A program made the translations under genes and the position numbers. A stretch of DNA of 38,112 nt from Deltaproteobacteria bacterium. GTDB lineage: Bacteria; Myxococcota_A; Polyangia; Polyangiales; JADJMO01. Location: NCBI GenBank assembly GCA_025363655.1, contig JANYDK010000102.1, forward strand, positions 1-38,112. Reading direction: 5' to 3'. Positions 3 to 30,016 of the stretch are shown in pieces; position 1 is the stretch's first letter, and the number at the start of each line of letters is the position of its first letter. Under the pieces are notes generated by a model, which was not told the origin of the DNA, ran no database searches, and was given only the letters and a program-made list of their open reading frames with translations.

Positions 3-3614
<3,612 letters not shown>

Positions 3615-3628
3615 AGGGAAGAGCCGCC

Positions 3629-5155
3629 ATGGAGTTCGACAGCAGCGTGGTTCGCATTCTCCTCGTCGACGATCGCCAGGAGGACCTCCGCGTCCTCCGC
3701 GCCGTCCTCGAATCGCCGCTCTACGAGCTCACGCTCGCGCCGTCCGGAGCCGAGGCACTTCGTCACGTCCTCCGCGTCGATTTCGCGGTGATTCTCCTCG
3801 ACGTGATGCTCCCCGAGATGGACGGCTTCGAGGTGGCCTCGATCATCAAGCAGCGCGAGCGCTCACGGCACACGCCGATCATCTTCCTCACCGCGTCGGG
3901 ACCCGAGCTCGCCGCCATCTACCAGGCTTACTCGGTCGGCGCCGTCGACTACATCGAGAAGCCGTTCGATCCGGCGGTGGTGCGCGCGAAGGTCAAGGTC
4001 TTCGCCGATCTCCATCGGAAAGATCAACGCATCAAGCAGCAGGCCGAGGCGCTCGTCGCCGCCGAGCGTCGTGAGCGAGACCTGCAGCTCGCGGCCTATC
4101 GCGTCGCGAGTCGTGAGCGCTATCGTCGTCTCGCCGAGGCGATCCCCGCGATCGTCTGGACCGCCGAGCCGCTCGGCGTGGTGACCTATTGCAACCGCCT
4201 TTGGCACGAGTTCAGCGGGCTCGAGGTCGACGAGGTGCTCGCCGAAGGGTGGGCGGAGGTGATGCACCCCGACGATCGAAAGGGCTGGGAATCTGCCTGG
4301 TCCGCGGCGATCGCGCGCGGTCAGGCCCTGGAGGTCGAGTGCCGGCTTCGTCGTCACGACGGACAATATCGCTGGCATCTCTGGCGCGTCGTCCCCGAGC
4401 ACGACGAGCACGGGACGCGCATCGGTTGGCTCGGCACGTCGGTCGATTGCGACGACCTGAAGACGGCCATCTCTTCTCGTGACGACTTTCTCTCCGCCGC
4501 CTCGCACGAGCTGCGCACGCCGCTGACATCCCTCAATTTGCAGCTGCAGAGCGTCCTCCTCAAGGTCGACGCCGACGAACGGATGGCTCCGCTGCGCCCC
4601 AAGCTCGAGTCCGCCGAACGGCAGGCGCGGAGGTTGACCAAGCTGATCGACAATCTCCTCGACCTCTCGCGCATCGCCCATCGTCGGCTGGATCTCGAGC
4701 TCGAGGAGCTCGACCTCGGCGTGCTCGTCGAAGAGGTCGTCGTGCGTGAGCGCGAAGATCTGGCGAAAGCTGGCTGCGAGCTGCACGTCTCGTCCGAGTC
4801 CGAGGTGCTCGGCACCTGGGATCGACTCCGGCTCGATCAGGTCGTCACCAATTTACTCACCAATGCGGCAAAATACGGCAGTGGCAGGCCGGTCGACGTC
4901 CGCGTCGAGGCGAGCCGCGAGCGCGCGAACATCGTCGTGCGAGATCGCGGCATCGGTATCGCCAGCGCCGATCAGCAACGAATCTTCGACCCCTTCGAGC
5001 GCTCGGTGACCCACAAGGACTATCGCGGCGCTGGCCTCGGGCTCTGGATCACGCGCACCATCGTCGAGGCGATGGGCGGCACCATCGGCGTCGAGAGCTC
5101 ACCGGGCGAAGGCTCGACGTTCAAGGTCGACTTGCCGAGGCACGCAGGTTGCTGA
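3629..5155 (+). CDS. Receiver-PAS-histidine kinase
   Basis: A 508-residue cytoplasmic sensor kinase with an N-terminal receiver. REC spans 8-125 with the acidic pair in LLVDDRQ, phospho-acceptor Asp58 in ILLDVMLPEMDG and Lys in EKPF. A short coiled linker leads to a PAS domain (about 165-285, with a PAC-like tail HDGQYRWHLWRV). HisKA has [10 protein letters not shown] (His293), and HATPase_c shows NLLTNAAKYG, RDRGIGIA and GAGLGLWI. There is no membrane segment. The ATG at 3629 follows the upstream stop by 14 bases and is preceded by an AAGGGAAG ribosome site, so it is probably co-transcribed with the HAMP-repeat kinase. Because the receiver precedes the kinase, phosphorylation by another kinase may control its activity; this is inference. 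Confidence 0.95.
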   Translation: MEFDSSVVRILLVDDRQEDLRVLRAVLESPLYELTLAPSGAEALRHVLRVDFAVILLDVMLPEMDGFEVASIIKQRERSRHTPIIFLTASGPELAAIYQAYSVGAVDYIEKPFDPAVVRAKVKVFADLHRKDQRIKQQAEALVAAERRERDLQLAAYRVASRERYRRLAEAIPAIVWTAEPLGVVTYCNRLWHEFSGLEVDEVLAEGWAEVMHPDDRKGWESAWSAAIARGQALEVECRLRRHDGQYRWHLWRVVPEHDEHGTRIGWLGTSVDCDDLKTAISSRDDFLSAASHELRTPLTSLNLQLQSVLLKVDADERMAPLRPKLESAERQARRLTKLIDNLLDLSRIAHRRLDLELEELDLGVLVEEVVVREREDLAKAGCELHVSSESEVLGTWDRLRLDQVVTNLLTNAAKYGSGRPVDVRVEASRERANIVVRDRGIGIASADQQRIFDPFERSVTHKDYRGAGLGLWITRTIVEAMGGTIGVESSPGEGSTFKVDLPRHAGC

Positions 5156-5166
5156 GCCAAACGGAC

Positions 5167-5859
5167 ATGCGCGTCCGCGAACCACTCCGCTTCCTCGTCG
5201 CCGAAGACGACAGCGCGCTCCGGGAAGAGCTCGTCGACGCGCTCCGTCTGGGAGGAAATGAAGTGCGGGACGCGTCTTCGGGCGCGGTCGCCATCGAAGA
5301 GGCACATCGCTGGCTCCCCGACGTCGTCGTCGTCGACTACTTCATGCCCTTCACCGACGGCATCTCGCTCATCGCCTACGTGCGGGCGATGGTGCGGCCG
5401 ATTCCGCCGGCGATTCTCGCGATGTCGGGGGTCGTGCGGGCGGCGCGATGGTGCACCGAGATCGGCGTCGATGCGTTCCTGGCGAAGCCCTTCACGCTCG
5501 CCACCTTCGACGCAATGGTGGACTACGTCGGCGAGCGTCGCGCGGCGTCGATGCAGAACCCGCAGAGCCAGCGGCCGAGTGGATCGGATCCGATGAGCGA
5601 GCCGCGAAGGGCCTGTGTGCTCGGCGTCGGCGAAGCGGCGGAAGGCATCGGCGACGTGCTCACCGCGTCTCTTCGGAACGCACGCGTGGTGGTGGTCGAC
5701 TCGCCCTACGATGCAGCGCAGACGCTCGCGGACATTCTTCCCGATCTCGTCGTGGTCACCGACCAGCGAGCGCACCTGCGCGTGCGCGAGGCGGCCGAAG
5801 CGAACGGCGTCTCCTGCATGGTCCTCCACCGGACGCCGCACGCACACGCGTCGGGGTGA
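5167..5859 (+). CDS. Response regulator with one active and one degenerate receiver
   Basis: A 230-residue protein with no DNA-binding domain. Receiver 1 (about 8-120) is canonical: AEDD acidic pair, phospho-acceptor Asp57 in VVVVDYFMP and Lys in AKPF. After a polar linker, residues about 145-230 look like a second receiver cut short: PDLVVVTD puts Thr where the phospho-acceptor should be, and the C-terminal helix and Lys are missing. I chose the ATG at 5167, 12 bases after the upstream stop; a TTG at 5149 in the same frame would overlap the kinase stop and add six residues. It probably belongs to the same transcript as the two kinases upstream. Confidence 0.88.
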   Translation: MRVREPLRFLVAEDDSALREELVDALRLGGNEVRDASSGAVAIEEAHRWLPDVVVVDYFMPFTDGISLIAYVRAMVRPIPPAILAMSGVVRAARWCTEIGVDAFLAKPFTLATFDAMVDYVGERRAASMQNPQSQRPSGSDPMSEPRRACVLGVGEAAEGIGDVLTASLRNARVVVVDSPYDAAQTLADILPDLVVVTDQRAHLRVREAAEANGVSCMVLHRTPHAHASG

Positions 5860-6572: not shown

Positions 6573-8072
6573 ATGATGTCTGCCGCCGAACGACGACCTG
6601 TGCACGAGACGAGCTCGAGGCGCAGCCTCCAGCGCGTGGTGCTCTGCGTCGACGACGACGCCGACTATCTCGACATCCTCGCGCGCATGATCAGTGGTCC
6701 GGAGTTGCGCACTCTCGGGGTCAGTTGCGTCGAGGACGCGCTCGGTTGCATCGAGCGCGAGCGCGTCGACGTGATCATCGTCGACCTCAAATTGGGCAGT
6801 GAATCTGGCCTCGATCTGATCGAACGGGTGCGCGCGACTGGGCATCACGTGCCCATCCTCGTGCTCACGGGTGCACCTTCGGTCGACGCCGCCGTCGAAG
6901 CCCTCAAGCGAGGTGCGGTCGATTTCCTCGCCAAGCCGGCCGACGCTTCACGGCTTCGCGCGACGCTCGCCGAGCTCATGGGCGACACCAGCGGGCCGCT
7001 CGATCGCAGCGTCGAGCGCGGCACCGACGCCCAATGGTTCGAAGGGATGTTCGGCGTCAGCGACGCGATGCGGCGAGTCTTCGACAGCATCGGGCGCGTC
7101 GCGCAGACCGACGCACCGGTGTTGATCGTCGGTGAGAGCGGCGTGGGAAAGGAGCTGGTGGCGCGCGCCATCCATGCACGGAGCAAGCGTCAGCACGGCG
7201 CCTTCGTGCCGGTGCACCTCGGCGCGATTCCCCGCGACCTCGTCGCCTCCGAGCTCTTCGGGCACGAACGTGGAGCCTTCACCGGCGCCACCTCGGCGAC
7301 CGTCGGAAAATTCGCCGCTGCCGCTGGAGGCACGCTCTTTCTCGATGAAATATCGACCGTCGTTCCAGAGGTGCAAATCGTTCTTCTGCGCGTGCTCGAG
7401 TCGTGGCGCTTCACGCGCGTCGGTGGGCGCAAGGAGCAGGACGCCGACGTGCGCATCGTCGTCGCGACCAACCGCGACCTCCTCAGCTTGGTCGAAGAGG
7501 GACGCTTTCGCGAAGATCTATACTTCCGTCTCGCGGTGTTCTCGGTGGGAATCCCGGCGCTGCGTGAGCGTAGCGACGACATCGTGCCGCTCGCCGAGCA
7601 CTTCCGCGATCACTTCGCCCGTCGCCATGCCTCTCCGGCGTGCGAGCTCGCGGCCGACGCGAGGAGCGCGCTCGTCGAGCACTCGTGGCCTGGCAACGTG
7701 CGCGAGTTGCGCAACGTCATCGAGCGAGCTGTCGTCTTCGCCTCCAGCCCGGCGCTCGAAGCGGCCGATCTCCAACTCGAAGCACCGCGGCTCGAGAGCT
7801 CGCGCATCCCCGTCGCGCCCCGTTTCCCGTCCGAGGCGAAGCCCGACTCGTCGCGGCATGAAGACTCGGTCGTCATTCCGCTCGGCACCTCGATGCACGA
7901 CGCCGAACGCGAAATCCTCCTTCGCACGCTCGCGTTCGTCGGCGGAAACAAGCTCCGCGCTGCGCAGGTGCTCGGCATCAGTCGCCGGTCGATCTACAAC
8001 CGCCTCAAGGAGTACGGCCTCGCCGAGGCTCATCGCGACGCGGACGAGCCGGACAGCGGCGCCGAAAATTGA
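6573..8072 (+). CDS. NtrC-family sigma54-dependent response regulator
   Basis: A 499-residue transcription activator. The receiver (20-140) has CVDDD, phospho-acceptor Asp71 in IIVDLKLG and Lys in AKPAD. The AAA+ domain (about 160-385) has Walker A GESGVGKE, the sigma54-contacting GAFTGA loop, Walker B GGTLFLDEIS and an arginine-finger region FREDLYFRL. The C-terminus has a Fis-type helix-turn-helix (GGNKLRAAQVLGISRRSIYNRL). All key motifs are intact, so it should hydrolyse ATP to open sigma54 promoters when phosphorylated. Two ATG codons stand in tandem at 6573 and 6576; GGGAG lies just upstream. It is the only DNA-binding output in the 12-kb signalling island and a plausible endpoint of its phosphorelay. 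Target promoters were not identified. Confidence 0.97.
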   Translation: MMSAAERRPVHETSSRRSLQRVVLCVDDDADYLDILARMISGPELRTLGVSCVEDALGCIERERVDVIIVDLKLGSESGLDLIERVRATGHHVPILVLTGAPSVDAAVEALKRGAVDFLAKPADASRLRATLAELMGDTSGPLDRSVERGTDAQWFEGMFGVSDAMRRVFDSIGRVAQTDAPVLIVGESGVGKELVARAIHARSKRQHGAFVPVHLGAIPRDLVASELFGHERGAFTGATSATVGKFAAAAGGTLFLDEISTVVPEVQIVLLRVLESWRFTRVGGRKEQDADVRIVVATNRDLLSLVEEGRFREDLYFRLAVFSVGIPALRERSDDIVPLAEHFRDHFARRHASPACELAADARSALVEHSWPGNVRELRNVIERAVVFASSPALEAADLQLEAPRLESSRIPVAPRFPSEAKPDSSRHEDSVVIPLGTSMHDAEREILLRTLAFVGGNKLRAAQVLGISRRSIYNRLKEYGLAEAHRDADEPDSGAEN

Positions 8073-8081
8073 CCGGGGCGC

Positions 8082-8930
8082 TCAGCGCGCGGGTAGCTCG
8101 ATCTCGATGCGTCGCCGTGAGCTCGCGCGTTCGGTGAGGGTGACGGTGCCGCAGAGACGGCGCACCAGGCGACCGACGATGTGGAGCAGCGCGCGCTCGC
8201 CGTTCTTGTCCGAGGGCGGCAGCACGTCGAGGCGACCGGCCAAGAGGGCCGTGACGTGGGCGAGCCCGAGGGCGTTCTCGCGCGTGTCGTGCTCGACCAC
8301 CAAGAGCGCTCGATGCGGCGAGCTCTTGCGTACGGTGACCCGCACCTCGTGTCTTGGCGGCGTCGTGCGGAGGACGTACCGCATCAGATTGGCGAAGAAT
8401 TGCCGCACGAAGAGCGGCTCTCCGGGGACCGAGACCGGCCCTTCCGCGGCCTCGACGGTCACGAGCGTTCCCGCCCGACGAGCGCCGATCGCCGCCAGGT
8501 CGGTGACCTCGCGCACCACCTGCACCAGTTCGGAGTCGAATCCGTCGCCATCCGACTCCGAGAGCCCTTCGGTCTCGGACGTCTCGCAAGGGTGCGTCAG
8601 TGCGACCACGTTGTCGACCAAGAGCGTGAGCGAATCGGCCGCGCGGCGCACGATGCTCAGCAGGTGAAGTTGCTCGGAATCGAGCCCTCCGAGCGATGGC
8701 GTCAGCAGATCGAGGGCTCCGTGGATGCACGTGACGGGTGTGCGCAGGTCGTGGGAGGTGAGCGCGAGGATCTCGTCGCGGAGGGGCTTGAGGGCCCGAT
8801 AGCGTTCGAGCGCGCGGTCTCCCTCGCGCATGCCCAGCGCCGCCGTCTGTGGGTGGCCGTCGCCCATCTTGGTCTCGAGCGTCATGAGGAGCGCGCCGAG
8901 GTCGTCGTGCCGTTCATCGTTGTGCATCAC
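8082..8930 (-). CDS. Histidine-kinase-like protein with degenerate ATP-binding domain
   Basis: A 282-residue soluble protein. The dimerisation/phospho-acceptor region is preserved: LTSHDLRTPVTCIHGALDLL places His60 in a normal H-box. The C-terminal half aligns in layout with HATPase_c but has lost its motifs: the N-box reads FFANLMRYVL, with Tyr in place of the Mg-binding Asn; the position of DxGxG reads VVEHDTREN; and no GxGLGL is seen. Autophosphorylation therefore looks unlikely. It could act as a phosphotransfer partner, a phosphatase or an inhibitor of neighbouring kinases (inference). A tandem ATG ATG (8928-8930, 8925-8927) follows an AGGTG-containing leader. Its stop is only 9 bases from the convergent activator stop. 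Confidence 0.85.
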   Translation of the reverse strand: MMHNDERHDDLGALLMTLETKMGDGHPQTAALGMREGDRALERYRALKPLRDEILALTSHDLRTPVTCIHGALDLLTPSLGGLDSEQLHLLSIVRRAADSLTLLVDNVVALTHPCETSETEGLSESDGDGFDSELVQVVREVTDLAAIGARRAGTLVTVEAAEGPVSVPGEPLFVRQFFANLMRYVLRTTPPRHEVRVTVRKSSPHRALLVVEHDTRENALGLAHVTALLAGRLDVLPPSDKNGERALLHIVGRLVRRLCGTVTLTERASSRRRIEIELPAR

Positions 8931-9034: not shown

Positions 9035-11206
<2,172 letters not shown>

Positions 11207-16103: not shown

Positions 16104-16940
16104 TCAGCGCCGTCGGAAGACGCGGAGGCTCGGGTCGAGGCCAGGGAAGGGCTCGAGCGCCGGGCAGTCGGCCGGGGAGACCCACTCCGAAGGGCCGAGA
16201 ATCAGCGCGCCGCGCGGCTCGAGGGAGGCGGCGAGGCGTTCGAGCACCTTCCGTTGCATTCGGCGATCGAAGTAGATGAGGACGTTGCGACAGAGGATGA
16301 GGTGATAAGAGGCAATGATCGCGCTCGGGGGTGCGAGCGTGGCGCCGATGAGGTCGTGCCGCTCGAAGGACACCCGAGCGCGGAGCTCGTCGACGATGCA
16401 AGCGTGGTCTCCCTCGTCTCGCAGCCATCGCGCGCGACGCGCCGAAGAGACGGCCTCGAGCTGGCGACCTGGATACATGCCGCGCGCGGCGACGGCGAGG
16501 GAGGGCTCGTCGCGATCGGTGGCCATCACCTCGTACTCGGCGAAAGAGCCACATTGCTCGGCCATCTGCATGGCAATCGACCAGGCCTCTTCGCCGGTCG
16601 CCGTTCCTGCCGACCACGCGCGCAGGGTTCCGCCGATCGAGAGTCGCATCAGCAACTCGGGGAGCACTTTCGCGTCGATTGCGTGAAAAACCGGGCCATC
16701 GCGAAAGAACGTGCTCAACGGGACGGCCACCGCGGCGACGAGCGCGGCGGCCTCGGAGGTGTCGCGAGCCAGGTGGGAGAGATACTCGTCGACGTGCGCG
16801 CACCCGAGCTCCCGCATGCGCGCTTCGATGCCGCGATGGGCCGCGTGAAGCGCGAAATCACGGAGGTCGAAGGCGCGACTCTCGGCGAGCCAGGCGAGCA
16901 CGGTCTGCGCACCTTCGGCGTCGAGCAGGCTCGTCGTCAT
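16104..16940 (-). CDS. CheR-type protein-glutamate methyltransferase
   Basis: A 278-residue SAM-dependent methyltransferase. The N-terminal helical region (1-75) is followed by PLSTFFRDGPVF (CheR motif T-x-FFR-D), the SAM-binding loop WSAGTATGEEAWSIAM, the acidic strand YEVMATDRDE, and LILCRNVLIYFDRRMQ, the catalytic-domain signature. Full family length. CheR normally methylates Glu residues of chemoreceptors using S-adenosylmethionine. Here no receptor, CheB, CheA or CheW is visible, and the ATG overlaps the stop of a REC-kinase (ATGA), so it is coupled to sensor kinases. A sensory role other than taxis is likely (inference). Confidence 0.93.
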   Translation of the reverse strand: MTTSLLDAEGAQTVLAWLAESRAFDLRDFALHAAHRGIEARMRELGCAHVDEYLSHLARDTSEAAALVAAVAVPLSTFFRDGPVFHAIDAKVLPELLMRLSIGGTLRAWSAGTATGEEAWSIAMQMAEQCGSFAEYEVMATDRDEPSLAVAARGMYPGRQLEAVSSARRARWLRDEGDHACIVDELRARVSFERHDLIGATLAPPSAIIASYHLILCRNVLIYFDRRMQRKVLERLAASLEPRGALILGPSEWVSPADCPALEPFPGLDPSLRVFRRR

Positions 16941-18072
16941 GGCGTACCGAGGGGCAGGGTGATGCGGAAAATCGAGCCGCCGCCGGGCCGATCGAGCACT
17001 TGCGCCATGCCGCCGTGGGCCGACGCGACCAAGCGCACCATGTAGAGACCGAGCCCGAAGCCGCGTCGCGCTTGCATCGCCACTTGCTCGGAGAGCCCGC
17101 TGAATTTCTGGAAGAGGGACGCTTTGAGCGAATCGGGCACGCCGCTGCCGCGATCGATGACGTCGATGCAGATGGTCCGTTCTTCCGGCTTGGCGTGGAG
17201 CGAGAGAACTACGGTGCGATCGTCGCCGACGTGACGAATGGCGTTGGTGAGGAGGTTCGCGAGCGCGCGGCTCACCAGCGACTCGTCGATGGTCAGCTCG
17301 AGCGACGCTTCGACGTCGACGTCGAGCGTGACCTCTCGGGCCCGCGCCTCGGCCTCGACGTGTGCGAGCGCGCGGGTTGCCACTTGCGAGGCCCGAGCTC
17401 GGGTCATCGAGAGAATCGCATGCCCGTGCTCGATGCGGTGCACCTCGAGGAGATCTTCGAGCATGCGATTGATGCGGCTGCTGGCTTCGAGCGCGGTGGC
17501 GATGTCTTCTCGCGTCTCGGGGCTCGTGACGTCGTCGGCGACGATGCGGAGAATGCCAATCAGTCCGGCGAGAGGACTACGGATGTCGTGGACGAGGAGC
17601 GACACCAAATCTTCCTTGAGGGCGTCGAGCTCGCGGAGGGACTTCAGCTGGCGGCGAATCTCGGCGTCCTGCCGTCGGGTGCGCAAGAGCGTGGCGACGC
17701 GGAGCCGCAATTCGCGCCGATCGACGGGCTTGGTCAGATAGTCGTCGGCGCCGGCGGCGAGCCCCGCGTTGCGCTCGCTCTGCTCGGAGAGTGCAGTCAC
17801 GAGAATGACGGGGAGGAACTCGCCGGGGCGTCTCGCCTTGATGCGAGCGCAGGTCTCGATGCCACTCAGCCCCGGCATCATCACGTCGAGGAGGACCAAG
17901 TCGACGGGCTCGAGCTCGAGGGCACCCAGCGCCTGTTGACCATCGGCGGCCTCGACGACGCGTAGCTCGGCCGAGAGAATGCCGCGCATCAGCAGTCGAT
18001 TGCGCTCGTCGTCGTCGACGACCAGCACGACGGGCCTGGCGACGCCGACGCCGACTCCGGGCGCGACGCTGT

Positions 18073-18076
<4 letters not shown>
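16937..18076 (-). CDS. Receiver-histidine kinase
   Basis: A 379-residue soluble protein. The receiver (15-130) has LVVDDDERN, Asp64 in [11 protein letters not shown] and TKPVD with the conserved Lys. A coiled linker leads into His[15 protein letters not shown] (His163), and HATPase_c with [18 protein letters not shown] and RGFGLGLYM. The start is GTG at 18074-18076, which overlaps the TGA of the upstream kinase (GTGA); the open frame extends further but only through antisense-like sequence inside that gene. The stop overlaps the CheR start (ATGA). The two 4-base overlaps indicate tightly coupled translation, so the receiver is a natural target of the upstream kinase. Confidence 0.93.
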
Positions 18077-20247
<2,171 letters not shown>

Positions 20248-20251
20248 CGTG

Positions 20252-20258
20252 CCTCCCC
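20252..20258 (-). promoter_or_regulatory. Ribosome binding site for the PAS hybrid kinase
   Basis: GGGGAGG on the minus strand, four bases before the ATG at 20247. It supports this start over an in-frame start at 20400. Confidence 0.75.
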
Positions 20259-20342
20259 ACCCATGGCGTAGCTGGTACGCGCGAAGATGTCTCGCCAGAT
20301 TCACCGAAAGCCAGACCCCGCGGGGATATGAGGCGCTTCTGC

Positions 20343-20359
20343 AGAGGACATCGTCCTCT
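20343..20359. terminator. Hairpin downstream of the phosphoesterase gene
   Basis: AGAGGAC and GTCCTCT form a perfect 7-bp stem with an ATC loop. It lies about 80 bases past the phosphoesterase stop and about 95 bases before the start of the kinase operon on the same strand, so it could end the first transcript. No T-run is seen. Confidence 0.35.
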
Positions 20360-20437
20360 CGCGTCGAGCTATGGCGCGCCGCATTGTCGACTACCGCCAC
20401 GACGCGAGCACCGCGACTCGGCGACGACGGCGCGGCC

Positions 20438-23743: not shown

Positions 23744-23935
23744 GTGGACCCGCTGCGCTTGGACGACCTCGAGAACGCACGCGCCATGACCGCTGGCGAG
23801 CGAGGTCGCTTGGCCCTCGGGGCGATGCGAACTGGTTTCCGCTTGAAGCGCGCCGGGCTCCGCGCACGCTTCCCGAACGCCTCTCCGGAAGAGGTCGAGT
23901 CTCTGTTCGATCGGTGGCTCGAACGCGATGACTGA
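23744..23935 (+). CDS. Small helical protein, partner of a nucleotidyltransferase
   Basis: A 63-residue protein, GTG start at 23744. It is predicted to be helical and charged: LDDLENARAMTAGERGRLALGAMRTG, then RLKRAGLRARFPNASPEEVESLFDRWL. Its stop overlaps the start of the nucleotidyltransferase gene by 8 bases (ATGACTGA), so the two are translationally coupled. No DNA-binding motif is evident. By position it is a candidate antitoxin or cofactor for the nucleotidyltransferase; this is inference. No family recognised with certainty. Confidence 0.72.
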   Translation: MDPLRLDDLENARAMTAGERGRLALGAMRTGFRLKRAGLRARFPNASPEEVESLFDRWLERDD

Positions 23936-24521
23936 GGCCACGCCGGAAAGCGCCCTCGCCCACCTGGCGTCGGAGCTCCGGCGACGAAAGCGACGCTTCG
24001 CCTTGGTGGGCGGTCTCGCCGTCTCCATTCGTGCAGAAGTGCGATTCACCCGGGACGTCGACGTCGCGATCGTGGTCGCGAGTGACGCGGAGACCGAGGC
24101 GCTGGTCCGCGACCTCTCCACTTCCGGCTACTCGATTGGGGCGCTCGTGGAACACGACGAGCGAAAGCGATTGGCGACCGTGCGCCTTCGCTCGCCGAGC
24201 CGTGTCGTCGTCGACCTCCTCGCCGCCAGCTCGGGGATCGAAGAGGAAATCGTCGACCGTGCCGTCGAGGTCAGCATCGACGACGTCGGCATGATTCCGG
24301 TCGCGCGCGCCGAGGAGCTGCTCGGCATGAAGGTGCTTTCGATGACCGACGCCCGTCCCCAGGACCGAATCGATGCCAAGAACCTCTTGGCGCTCAATCC
24401 CGATATCGATCTCGCTGCGGTGCGCGAGCTGCTCGGGCGCATCGAGACCCGCGGCTTTCATCGCGGTCAGGATCTCGGCGCGAAGTTCGACGCCCTGCTA
24501 CGCAGCGTGCCACTCGGCTGA
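23928..24521 (+). CDS. Nucleotidyltransferase-fold protein (AbiEii/AbiGii-like)
   Basis: A 197-residue protein with a minimal nucleotidyltransferase core: FALVGGLAVSIRAEVRFTRD gives the GG motif (28-29), followed by Asp43-x-Asp45 as metal ligands, and RVVVDLL supplies a third acidic residue (Asp96). The later block LLGMKVLSMTDARPQDRIDAKNLL matches the Lys/Asp helix typical of AbiEii/DUF6036-type enzymes. Such enzymes transfer nucleotides to tRNA or protein in abortive-infection and toxin-antitoxin systems, though related members are housekeeping or unknown. The start overlaps the small upstream gene. The pair sits alone between an NTF2-like gene and a lipoprotein, with no restriction, CRISPR or phage genes nearby. 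Confidence 0.85.
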   Translation: MTEATPESALAHLASELRRRKRRFALVGGLAVSIRAEVRFTRDVDVAIVVASDAETEALVRDLSTSGYSIGALVEHDERKRLATVRLRSPSRVVVDLLAASSGIEEEIVDRAVEVSIDDVGMIPVARAEELLGMKVLSMTDARPQDRIDAKNLLALNPDIDLAAVRELLGRIETRGFHRGQDLGAKFDALLRSVPLG

Positions 24522-26073: not shown

Positions 26074-26799
26074 TCAGTGACAGGGCGTCGGGGAGCACGC
26101 CAAGTTGCCATCGGTGCCGCAGACGCAGACGTGATCGCACTCGACGACGCAGGAGGCCGACGGCTCGACCGATCCACACGGTTTCCCGGCGGCGCAAGTG
26201 TCCACCGTGAGCCCACAATTCTTCGTGCCGATATCGAAGCGTGTCGGTTCGCCGACACCCCCGTTGGTGCACTTCCATTCGGTCGCGCACTTGTCGCCAC
26301 CGAGGAAGTAATGGCAATAAAAATGCTCGTCCGGATATCCAGACTTGCCCTTGCAGAGCTGGCCTGAGGTCGGCGGAGCGATGGGACACCCTGGGGTGAT
26401 CGGACCGACCGGAGGGCCGACGTCCGGCGGACCGGCGTCGGCTGGCGTGTCGACGGGCGGGCAGGTCGGATGCGTCACGACCTTTCCCGCACCGCACGAC
26501 CAACCGCCCTCCGGGCACGTGCACTGGTATTCGACGAGCGGACCGATCGAGGTTCCATCGGGACACGGCGTCTGCAGGTCGTACACGCAGGCCAGTTTTC
26601 TCGGTGAGCAAGCCCCATGAGGCGTGTCCTTGCCCAGAGGCGCAGGACACGGGGGATCGATCGCGCTGCCGTCGTTGGCGGCGTCCGCCGAAGTGTCGGG
26701 CGCGACCGTGCCTCCGCACGCGAGCATCGAGATCCAGCTCGAGATCGAGAGCGCGAGCGGGAGGACGAACGTCGACGAGAGGCGCGCTGGTGAAGCCAT
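26074..26799 (-). CDS. Cys-rich lipoprotein
   Basis: A 241-residue predicted lipoprotein. The signal peptide ends at MLACGG (Cys28). The mature part has about 24 Cys in short blocks (CPAPLGKDTPHGACSPRKLAC, CTCPEGGWSCG, CHYFLGGDKCATEWKC, CVVECDHVCVCGTDGNLAC) separated by a Pro/Gly/Asp linker (PADAGPPDVGPPVGPITPG), a pattern of repeated small disulfide-rich modules seen in many myxobacterial surface proteins. The ATG at 26797-26799 gives the signal peptide; no strong ribosome site is visible. It lies 30 bases upstream of the small lipoprotein on the same strand and may share its transcript. Function unknown. Confidence 0.8.
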   Translation of the reverse strand: MASPARLSSTFVLPLALSISSWISMLACGGTVAPDTSADAANDGSAIDPPCPAPLGKDTPHGACSPRKLACVYDLQTPCPDGTSIGPLVEYQCTCPEGGWSCGAGKVVTHPTCPPVDTPADAGPPDVGPPVGPITPGCPIAPPTSGQLCKGKSGYPDEHFYCHYFLGGDKCATEWKCTNGGVGEPTRFDIGTKNCGLTVDTCAAGKPCGSVEPSASCVVECDHVCVCGTDGNLACSPTPCH

Positions 26800-26944
26800 C
26801 GAACGAATGTTGACCGATCGCCGCGCCTGGCTCCAGCACCGTTCGTGGGCGCTCGCATTTCGAGGACGCCTCTTGACGCCACCCTCCCCACCCTCGATCC
26901 TTCGCACGCAAAGCATCTCCCCTTCGCCCCCAAGGTCCCCGCCC

Positions 26945-29900
26945 ATGTCCTCTCTCCGCTTCGACAACAAGGTCGCGATCATCACCGGCGCCGGCGGTGG
27001 CCTCGGCCGCTCGCACGCCCTCCTCCTCGGCTCGCGTGGCGCGAAGGTGGTCGTCAACGACCTCGGCGGCACCGCGACGGGCGGTGGCAAATCCTCCGCG
27101 GCAGCCGACAAGGTCGTCGAAGAAATCAAAGCCGCGGGCGGCACGGCGATCGCGAACTACGACTCGGTCGAGGACGGCGACAAGATCATCAAGACCGCCA
27201 TCGATGCCTTCGGGGGTGTCGACATCCTCGTCAACAACGCGGGCATCCTTCGCGACACTTCGTTCCAGAAGCTCTCGGCCGAAGATTGGGACCTCATCTA
27301 TCGCGTCCACGTCCTCGGCGCCTACCGCACCACCAAAGCGGTGTGGGATCACATGCGCGACAAGGGATATGGGCGCATCATTTTCACCTCTTCCGCGGCC
27401 GGCATTTACGGCAACTTCGGCCAATCGAACTATTCGATGGCCAAGCTCGGCCTCCTCGGTTTCTCCAATACGCTCGCCATCGAGGGCAAGAAGAAGAACG
27501 TCCACGTGAACACGATTGCCCCGCTCGCGGGCTCGCGTCTCACCGAGACCGTTCTCCCGAAAGAGCTGATCGACGCGCTCCGCCCCGAATACGTCTCTCC
27601 GCTGGTGGCCTATCTCTGTCACGAAGAGTGCAAAGAGACGGGCGGGCTCTTCGAGGTCGGCGGCGGCTTCTTCGCCAAACTGCGTTGGGAGCGCTCGGCC
27701 GGCGAGATGCTGCGCCTCGGCGGGACGATGACGCCGGAGATGGTGAAGCGTTCGTGGGGCAAAATCACCGGCTGGGAGAAGGCGTCGCATCCGCCCGACA
27801 TCACCGCGTCGATGCAACCGATTCTGCAGAATCTGCAGGCGGGGCCGACCAAGGGCGGCAACGAGTTCATCGATGTCGACGTCGCCCTCGGGTACGAATT
27901 CTCGCCGATGACTTCGAAGTACGACGAGCGCGACGTCTCGCTCTACGCGCTCGGAATCGGCGCCGCGCACAATCCGCTCGACGCCAACGACCTCCAGCTC
28001 GTCTACGAGATGCACGGCGAAGGCTTCCGCACGTTTCCCACGTTCGGCGTCATTCCGGCGATTGGCTGCATGATGGAGCGCGCCAAGCAGGGTGAGCAGG
28101 CCCCGGGGATGAACTACGGGTTCGATCGCATTCTCCACGGCGAGCACACGATGGAGATCAAGCGTCCACTGCCGCCGAAGGCGACGCTGACGCACAAGGC
28201 GAAAATCACCAACATCTACGACAAGGGCAAGAACGCCCTCGTCCTCACCGAGGTGAAGAGCTACGACGAGGCGGGCAACGAGCTCATCGTCAACGAGTTC
28301 GTCACGCTGGTGCGCGGGGCCGGCGGCTGGGGCGGCGATCGTGGTCCGACGGCCGACGTCAACGTCCCGCCGGAGCGCGCGCCCGATCAAGTGGTGACCG
28401 AGAAAATCCTCGAGAACCAGGCGCTGCTCTATCGCCTCACTGGCGACATCAATCCGCTCCACGCCGACCCGATGTTCGCGACCGCCTTCGGCTTCCAGAA
28501 GCCGATTCTCCACGGGCTCTGCACTTATGGCTTTGCCACTCGGCACGTCGTCAATGCCTTCCACAAAGGCGATCCGCGCAAGTTCAAGAGCGTGAAGGCG
28601 CGCTTCGCCGACAGCGTGTTCCCCGGCGAGACGCTGATCACCGAGATGTGGAAAGACGGCGACGACAAAGTCATCTTCCGCTGCAAGGTGAAAGAGCGCG
28701 ACAAAGTCGTCATCAGCAACGCGGCTGTCGAGTTCTACAAAGAGATTCCCAAGGCAATCGCTGCCAAGCCGGCGGCGGCTCCGGCGGCAGCAGCGGGCGC
28801 TCCGGCGAAGCCTTCGACCCCGACCGAGGCCGACGTCATCAGCGCCGACATCTTCCGCGCCATCGAGCTCTATCTGGAGGCGACTCCCGACTTGGCGGCG
28901 AAGATCCAAACCGTCTTCCAATTCAAGCTCACCGGTCCCGACAGCGCCTGGTCGCTCGATTTGAAGAGCGGCAAAGGCTCCATCAAGCCGGGCACCGCCG
29001 CTGCCGACGTCACCCTCGAGATGACCGACAGTGACTTCATCGCCATGTCGACCGGCAAAGCCGACGCGCAAAAGCTCTATTTCGGCGGGAAAATGAAGAT
29101 CGGCGGGAACGTGATGGCTTCGCAGAAGCTGCAGTTCCTCCAGAAGATGGATCCGGCGTACGGCGTGAAAGCCGTCACCGAGCGCTTCGCCAAAGGCGGC
29201 GGAAACGCACCGGCGGCGGCAGCACCGGCAGCAGCTCCGGCAACCACTGCAACTCCGGCGTCGAGCGCCGACGTCGTCAGCGGCGATATCTTCAGGGCAA
29301 TCGCGCTCTACTTGGAGGCGACTCCCGACTTGGCCGCGAAGATCCAAACCATCTTCCAATTCAAGCTCGCCGGCCCTGACAGCGCCTGGCTGCTCGATTT
29401 GAAGAACGGCAAAGGCTCGATCAAGCCGGGCACCGGCACCGCCGACGTCACGCTGGAAATGGCAGATAGCGACTTCATCGCCATGTCGACCGGCAAGGCC
29501 GACGCGCAGAAGCTCTATTTCGGCGGGAAGATGAAGATCGGCGGCAATGTGATGGCGTCGCAGAAGCTGCAATTCCTCCAGAAGATGGATCCCGAATACG
29601 GCGTCAAGGCCGTGAAGGAGCGTCTCGCGGGTGGCGGTGGCCACGCGGCGGCGAGCGCGGCGGCGGCCTCTTCGGCGAGCGCAGGTCCGGTGGCGAACGC
29701 GTCGTCGTTCTTCGCCAAGCTGAAAGAGCGCCTGACGCAGAACGCGAACTTGAGCGGCGAGGTGGGGGTCATTCTCCAATTCAAGGTGAAGTCTCCCGAC
29801 GCGCTCTTCAGCGTCGATTTGAAGGCCAGTCCGGGCGTCGTGAAGGAAGGCGCGGGCGCTGGTGCAGTGGCGACGTTCATCCTCGACGACAGCGACTTGG

Positions 29901-30016
29901 CGGCGCTCGCCAAAGGCGAAGTCGAGATTCGCTCGCTCTATCAGCACGGGAGATTGCGCGTCGACGGTGATGCGCACTACGTCCACAAGCTCGGCTTCTT
30001 GAAGGGTCTCGTCTGA
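26945..30016 (+). CDS. Multifunctional beta-oxidation protein: SDR-MaoC-SCP2x3
   Basis: A 1023-residue fusion with the domain order of eukaryotic peroxisomal multifunctional enzyme type 2 (HSD17B4). Residues 1-305 are a short-chain dehydrogenase: TGAGGGLG (14-21), NNAG (97-100), catalytic Ser150, Tyr163 and Lys167, expected to oxidise (3R)-hydroxyacyl-CoA with NAD. Residues about 305-605 are a 2-enoyl-CoA hydratase 2 (MaoC) domain with YRLTGDINPLH, giving Asp501, Asn503 and His506. Three SCP2 sterol/lipid-carrier domains follow (about 630-753, 776-899, 918-1023); the first two are near-identical copies. The known family has one SCP2 domain. It probably handles CoA esters of branched or long-chain acids. 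The ATG at 26945 begins the SDR; ribosome site weak. Confidence 0.95.
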   Translation: MSSLRFDNKVAIITGAGGGLGRSHALLLGSRGAKVVVNDLGGTATGGGKSSAAADKVVEEIKAAGGTAIANYDSVEDGDKIIKTAIDAFGGVDILVNNAGILRDTSFQKLSAEDWDLIYRVHVLGAYRTTKAVWDHMRDKGYGRIIFTSSAAGIYGNFGQSNYSMAKLGLLGFSNTLAIEGKKKNVHVNTIAPLAGSRLTETVLPKELIDALRPEYVSPLVAYLCHEECKETGGLFEVGGGFFAKLRWERSAGEMLRLGGTMTPEMVKRSWGKITGWEKASHPPDITASMQPILQNLQAGPTKGGNEFIDVDVALGYEFSPMTSKYDERDVSLYALGIGAAHNPLDANDLQLVYEMHGEGFRTFPTFGVIPAIGCMMERAKQGEQAPGMNYGFDRILHGEHTMEIKRPLPPKATLTHKAKITNIYDKGKNALVLTEVKSYDEAGNELIVNEFVTLVRGAGGWGGDRGPTADVNVPPERAPDQVVTEKILENQALLYRLTGDINPLHADPMFATAFGFQKPILHGLCTYGFATRHVVNAFHKGDPRKFKSVKARFADSVFPGETLITEMWKDGDDKVIFRCKVKERDKVVISNAAVEFYKEIPKAIAAKPAAAPAAAAGAPAKPSTPTEADVISADIFRAIELYLEATPDLAAKIQTVFQFKLTGPDSAWSLDLKSGKGSIKPGTAAADVTLEMTDSDFIAMSTGKADAQKLYFGGKMKIGGNVMASQKLQFLQKMDPAYGVKAVTERFAKGGGNAPAAAAPAAAPATTATPASSADVVSGDIFRAIALYLEATPDLAAKIQTIFQFKLAGPDSAWLLDLKNGKGSIKPGTGTADVTLEMADSDFIAMSTGKADAQKLYFGGKMKIGGNVMASQKLQFLQKMDPEYGVKAVKERLAGGGGHAAASAAAASSASAGPVANASSFFAKLKERLTQNANLSGEVGVILQFKVKSPDALFSVDLKASPGVVKEGAGAGAVATFILDDSDLAALAKGEVEIRSLYQHGRLRVDGDAHYVHKLGFLKGLV
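28832..29641 (+). repeat. Tandem duplication of the SCP2-coding segment
   Basis: Two copies of about 370 bases (28832-29203 and 29270-29641) with an exact 438-base period, including an Ala-rich linker. The encoded segments differ at only a few positions (for example Thr/Ala, Ser/Leu, Ser/Asn changes), which implies a recent duplication or gene conversion inside the gene. Confidence 0.92.
30001..30006 (+). promoter_or_regulatory. Possible ribosome site for an upstream CTG start
   Basis: GAAGGG lies six bases before a CTG codon at 30013 that overlaps the stop of the multifunctional protein (CTGA). It sits inside the end of that gene, so it may be fortuitous. Confidence 0.3.

Follow-up and report, generated by a model that had tools for sequence, protein, structure and literature searches.

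The gene on the minus strand at 8082-8930 of the window, the 38,112 nucleotide stretch of DNA analysed here, encodes a HisKA protein that has an intact H-box and has lost its ATP site. Judged by its sequence, the protein is a descendant of a canonical HisKA kinase linked to an NtrC-like activator, and such an activator is encoded beside it (Table 1). The original prediction had correctly recognised that the ATP site is lost and the phosphoacceptor histidine kept. What is new here, and had not been seen at that time, is the apparent origin of the protein: it is related to canonical kinases that are linked to the adjacent regulator, and has been stripped down. The most likely function, put forward at somewhat less than even confidence, is that of an ATP-independent histidine phosphotransferase or phosphatase acting on the neighbouring activator.

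Table 1. Positions of the degenerate kinase, its sequence features and the neighbouring signalling genes in the window.
Feature	Position	Strand	Basis and remarks
Degenerate HisKA kinase, 282 aa	8085..8930	(-)	Stop codon 8082-8084
DHp (HisKA) domain, residues 47-112	8595..8792	(-)	Pfam PF00512; helical in structure model
His60, predicted phosphoacceptor, in SHDLRTP	8751..8753	(-)	Column alignment
Thr64 (H+4)	8739..8741	(-)	Phosphatase-activity position in HisKA kinases; Ser in the three canonical relatives
Pseudo-CA (HATPase_c-like) domain, residues 166-282	8085..8435	(-)	HATPase_c match below cut-off and structural matches
Former N-box	8376..8390	(-)	N181 retained; Tyr185 in place of the Mg-ligand Asn; N in 97/101 at that column
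Former G1 box, residues 213-222	8265..8294	(-)	Column alignment; two possible registers
Former G2 box, residues 244-249	8184..8201	(-)	Arg246 and Leu248 in place of the central glycines
NtrC-like activator (receiver, sigma-54 AAA+, Fis HTH)	6573..8069	(+)	Pfam, orthologue search; convergent neighbour, proposed partner
Hybrid kinase HisKA-HATPase-receiver-Hpt	9035..11203	(+)	Pfam; divergently oriented neighbour; kinase domains intact; may supply phosphate
Free receiver protein	5149..5856	(+)	Pfam; possible phosphate source or sink
Receiver-PAS-HisKA-HATPase kinase	3629..5152	(+)	Pfam; same cluster
HAMP-GAF-HisKA-HATPase kinase with two receiver matches	33..3611	(+)	Pfam; same cluster

The gene starts with either a GTG at 8930 or an ATG at 8927, as read from the open reading frame. 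Its GC content by codon position (0.748/0.457/0.858) resembles that of the four neighbouring signalling genes measured. The CA part alone is equally coding-like (0.74/0.48/0.87), and its GC3-GC2 difference was matched in none of 10,000 base shuffles. The reading frame runs over 282 codons without a stop or frameshift, for which the chance of a stop-free run is about 0.004 at the base composition of the gene. Codon composition and homology together exclude a random ORF. Paired frameshift errors masking the ATP boxes were also considered, however neither of the remaining minus-strand frames of 8061-8500 contains an N, G1 or G2 pattern, which speaks against such errors. The HisKA domain (PF00512) scores 40.1 bits over residues 51-111, above the Pfam cut-off, and carries the normal H-box, with H60 intact, that had been predicted for this ORF. 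The HATPase_c match is below the cut-off (19.9 bits against 26.4), although it covers positions 2-109 of the 111 in the profile. Only about 46 residues are present ahead of the DHp domain.

Loss of the ATP site was assessed at five diagnostic positions, these being the Mg-ligand Asn of the N-box, the Asp and Gly of G1, and the two central Gly of G2. The column alignment contained 101 sequences, 98 of them HisKA kinases from the genome itself and the other three relatives, with H at the His60 column in every one, having an H-box being the condition for inclusion. None of the five positions is kept in the window protein; the other 97 kinases of the genome keep 3 (4 kinases), 4 (3) or 5 (90). We take the N-box Asn of the Tyr185 column to be the Mg ligand. 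The first Asn of the box, N181, survives, and the N-box is therefore damaged rather than wholly lost. Within G1, the Asp is replaced by Glu218 (His213 if gapless) and the Gly by Ala220 (Thr215 if gapless). The gapless register, set by eye, gives H213/T215/E217; the gapped registers give either E218/A220/G222 or an insertion of 4 residues together with the loss of 3 residues in G2. In one register G222 aligns with the last Gly of G1, and the first Gly of G2 (G244) still aligns, yet the ATP boxes fail in every register considered. The earlier statement that N, G1 and G2 are all lost is upheld with these qualifications; alignment, which could have refuted it by recovering the boxes, recovered none.

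The genome containing the window is 9.04 Mb in 150 contigs and is 96% complete. Its HisKA places at E 0.01 or better number 102; the H-box pattern missed 4 of these, which lie outside the alignment. In a looser regular expression census of all 102, the four boxes are found together in 88, and an H-box without any of N, G1 and G2 is found in two, the window protein and C39:55888. Four other kinases of the genome, at C39:55888-56058, C39:40587-40772, C52:47042-47242 and C72:19078-19269, keep three of the five positions and are milder degenerate cases.

The closest relatives of the window protein are canonical kinases in three sister MAGs, L009, L010 and L011 (JALHOE010000290.1, JACPFM010000109.1 and JAJXTK010000011.1). 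Across five genomes of the family, matches at 1e-15 or better were found in three others, and a search of 289 genomes of the class (own genome included, 8 candidates scored per genome) found the same three and no more at 1e-17. The degenerate form was found in one draft genome only. The three relatives are 425–440 aa long, their N, G1 and G2 boxes are intact, their HATPase_c scores are 91–99 bits, and the window protein is 30–31% identical to them overall and 44–47% identical in the DHp. They are in the same clade, but have an additional N-terminal region, of which roughly 140 residues are missing from the window protein. The roughly 180 residues before the DHp in these relatives have no Pfam match, except for one below threshold in L009.

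The two halves of the protein have diverged unequally. Compared with the 98 kinases of its own genome, the window protein has the DHp closest to those of L009 (47%) and L010 (44%), whereas its CA ranks only 80th and 87th against the same two proteins. The clade of the window protein and the three relatives has support of 0.896 in the DHp, 0.993 at full length and 0.537 in the CA, these being local SH-like values from FastTree, one quick program, and not a full bootstrap. The terminal branch of the window protein is ordinary in the DHp tree (0.41, rank 68 of 101) and extreme in the CA tree (3.0, rank 2 of 101). Placement with canonical kinases, the missing N-terminus and this difference in rates suggest that a canonical kinase has lost its input and its ATP site, with the phosphotransfer and docking half still constrained.

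The kinase and activator genes converge and are separated by 9 bases, the former being a minus-strand gene within the signalling cluster, which agrees with the antiparallel placement first noted. Activator orthologues with 60% identity are found in G001 to G004; across 56 genomes of the order the next match is at 50%. The activator and a canonical kinase share a contig in G001 and G003, where they converge and about 2.0 and 3.3 kb separate their 3' ends. In G004 the two are on different contigs. In G002 the activator is present and no kinase match was found at the cut-off; the contig with the activator ends 3.5 kb downstream. The activator receiver is about 53–56% identical to those of the orthologues and has kept both acidic residues of the pair, the phosphoacceptor Asp, the Thr and the Lys. 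Based on this linkage, the activator is the proposed partner of the window protein. The activator itself is 499 aa, compared with 585–664 aa for the orthologues in the sister genomes, and the G002 copy has a Pro-rich stretch between the AAA+ domain and the HTH. The AI-2E-type permease that neighbours the canonical relatives was also sought in the genome, giving one 33% match at C102, a contig with no kinase match among the matches listed in the search with a canonical relative.

A structure model of the window protein was built on 35 aligned sequences from the genome and the relatives. These are mostly canonical paralogues, and the model may therefore be pulled towards the canonical fold. It has a mean pLDDT of 84.9 and contains a long hairpin of helices that leads into an alpha/beta domain; an alignment-free model was poor (pLDDT 48.5) and was left out of the structure search. 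Bergerat-fold CA domains match the model at up to Z 19.5 (rmsd 2.2, 147 aligned), and whole DHp-CA regions match at about Z 17–18, among them those of RetS, DivL, KinB and GacS. By sequence, the best PDB match is DivL (E 9.8e-6). The HATPase fold that was to be looked for is seen in the model. Spo0B and ChpT, also suggested for comparison, are absent among the matches listed in the sequence and structure searches, an absence that excludes nothing. The likeness to these two proteins stands as an analogy. Set against a functional HisKA kinase, the window protein has the H-box and a predicted Bergerat CA fold, and none of the five N, G1 and G2 residues.

The predicted architecture of the window protein, a DHp hairpin with a His and a CA-like domain with its ATP motifs lost, would fit that of ChpT and Spo0B. 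ChpT of Caulobacter is described as carrying phosphate on His33 of its DHp hairpin, without autophosphorylation, and its Bergerat-like domain, which does not use ATP, bound no nucleotide in the crystals reported (PMC3433190). In ChpT extra helix turns fill the pocket; in the window protein it is the ligand residues that are replaced. PhyT of Sphingomonas is reported to be a phosphotransferase and negative regulator, and the PhyT/PhyP type is similar in being a kinase with a degenerate ATPase domain (PMC5898713). PhyP is described as having an HRxxN DHp motif, a membrane anchor and a putative periplasmic domain (PMC5898713), in contrast to the window protein with its HDLRT at 60–64 and short N-terminus. 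DivL of Caulobacter is likewise a pseudokinase, but is reported to have Tyr in place of the His, to keep the N, G1, F and G2 boxes, to bind an ATP analogue weakly and to be neither a kinase nor a phosphatase (PMC4211667). RetS of Pseudomonas, reported to act on another kinase (PMC12189002), has a DHp-CA structure matching the model at Z 18.2 (rmsd 3.7, 209 aligned), and a ChrS variant whose CA domain is frameshifted is reported to act without its His (PMC9491836). With respect to the ChpT, Spo0B, PhyT, DivL and ChrS families the likeness is one of kind and need not mean membership. The window protein is probably the same kind of thing as the degenerate kinases of the ChpT, Spo0B, PhyT and DivL type, independently derived as far as the data go.

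For the proposed function, a kinase linked to the NtrC-like activator would have been left without its N-terminal region and with its ATP site erased in this lineage, while constraint on the DHp hairpin, including H60, D61 and T64, remained ordinary. The product would be an ATP-independent, presumably dimeric DHp protein for the receiver of the activator. H60 may exchange phosphate, in either direction, with the free receiver or with the receivers of the hybrid kinases nearby, and T64 may support dephosphorylation of the activator. The ordinary DHp rate and a CA among the fastest of the 101 sequences are consistent with the phosphotransferase, phosphatase or decoy envisaged in the original prediction. 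HisKA proteins are reported to need the acidic residue that follows the His to act as kinases, and a Thr or Asn at H+4 to act as phosphatases (PMC3510030). At these positions Asp and Thr are found in the window protein and Asp and Ser in the three relatives; T or N is present at H+4 in 89 of the 98 kinases of the genome. Since the H+1 Asp and H+4 Thr are common in ordinary kinases, they are weak positive evidence, permitting and not proving phosphatase activity. Three of the four DHp docking positions (H+8, +11, +12 and +15) agree with the relatives; the G/A/L triple is also present in six other kinases of the genome, so that this agreement is likewise weak evidence. An Hpt seems to be present already in the adjacent hybrid kinase (23.8 bits, just below the cut-off of 24.6), and the cluster may therefore not need another phosphotransferase.

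The main rival explanation, possible rather than probable, is that of a non-catalytic pseudokinase, which would bind the activator receiver or heterodimerise with another kinase and act through docking, titration or allostery in the manner of DivL or RetS, with H60 unneeded. DivL and RetS are among the structural matches listed, at a Z of about 18, although ordinary kinases score alike. DivL, described as lacking kinase and phosphatase activity, senses DivK~P (PMC4211667), and the ChrS variant with a broken CA domain is reported to still promote signalling independently of its His (PMC9491836). Pure docking would not, however, require the intact H60 and H-box or the ordinary DHp branch, and DivL, described as having lost its His and kept its boxes (PMC4211667), is the reverse of the window protein. 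Extreme CA divergence, the missing N-terminal region and the presence of the degenerate form in one genome would fit instead with the decay of a redundant kinase before stops accumulate. This is unlikely, given the uninterrupted reading frame and the coding-like composition of the CA; decay of the whole gene would also have sped up the DHp, which is not fast, and the model keeps the whole CA fold.

That the protein is still active as a kinase through a non-canonical ATP site is very improbable, although Nla6S of Myxococcus xanthus, a myxobacterial kinase, is said to have an atypical CA domain. Nla6S is also reported to partner an NtrC-type activator (PMC9765219). The CA of the window protein is recognisably canonical with its ligand residues replaced, and is derived from kinases that have them. 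There is a slight chance that H60 is phosphorylated in trans, the protein forming a heterodimer with an intact kinase whose CA acts on it and so changing the output. The DHp needed for this is kept, and the most similar DHp in the same genome are those of C106:204722 (41%) and C106:206356 (38%). An identity of 41% is modest, however, and kinase heterodimers are described as rarely reported (PMC9491836).

An extension of the preferred phosphotransferase or phosphatase function, and a rather doubtful one, is that a phosphotransferase is being born. Within family-level divergence, the kinase of this one myxobacterial lineage would have shed its input region and its ATP site, and the activator would have been rewired, the adjacent hybrid kinases driving or draining it via the old histidine. 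Phosphotransferases like PhyT, Spo0B and ChpT are thought to have been derived by degeneration of a kinase catalytic domain (PMC5898713). On the reading of a phosphotransferase being born, the intact relatives in the sister genomes would let each step be compared directly. The degenerate protein adjoins the same regulator whose sister-genus orthologues are linked to an intact kinase, and comparing these pairs would show whether loss of the ATP site makes a relay, a phosphatase or a decoy.

A second cluster in the same genome, at C106:204698-213266 (L003, L004 and L008), contains three HisKA kinases and an NtrC-like activator with 42% identity to that of the window. Two of these kinases have the DHp most like that of the window protein within the genome, and all three share G/A/L at H+11, +12 and +15. 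There was no PADLOC match to the window protein and no match in plasmid records searched at 1e-12. No report of the protein was found in the literature searched, which lacks most subscription papers. Repeats near the divergent promoter region showed nothing notable, and a sigma-54 promoter consensus pattern had 27 matches in the window with up to 2 mismatches, against 25.8 expected, which lends no support to such a promoter.

The free receiver protein at 5149-5856(+) has about 110 more residues past its receiver, with no Pfam match there. Elsewhere in the window, 16107-20400(-) holds a CheR methyltransferase and, close by, a PAS-HisKA-HATPase kinase that carries two receiver stretches, and a further HisKA place is at 17423-17617(-). 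An AbiEii-like nucleotidyltransferase at 23928-24518(+) has a Pfam score of 37.5 bits and a weak PADLOC match. The 1130-aa protein encoded at 26624-30013(+) combines a short-chain dehydrogenase, an MFE-2 hydratase/MaoC region and three SCP2 stretches.
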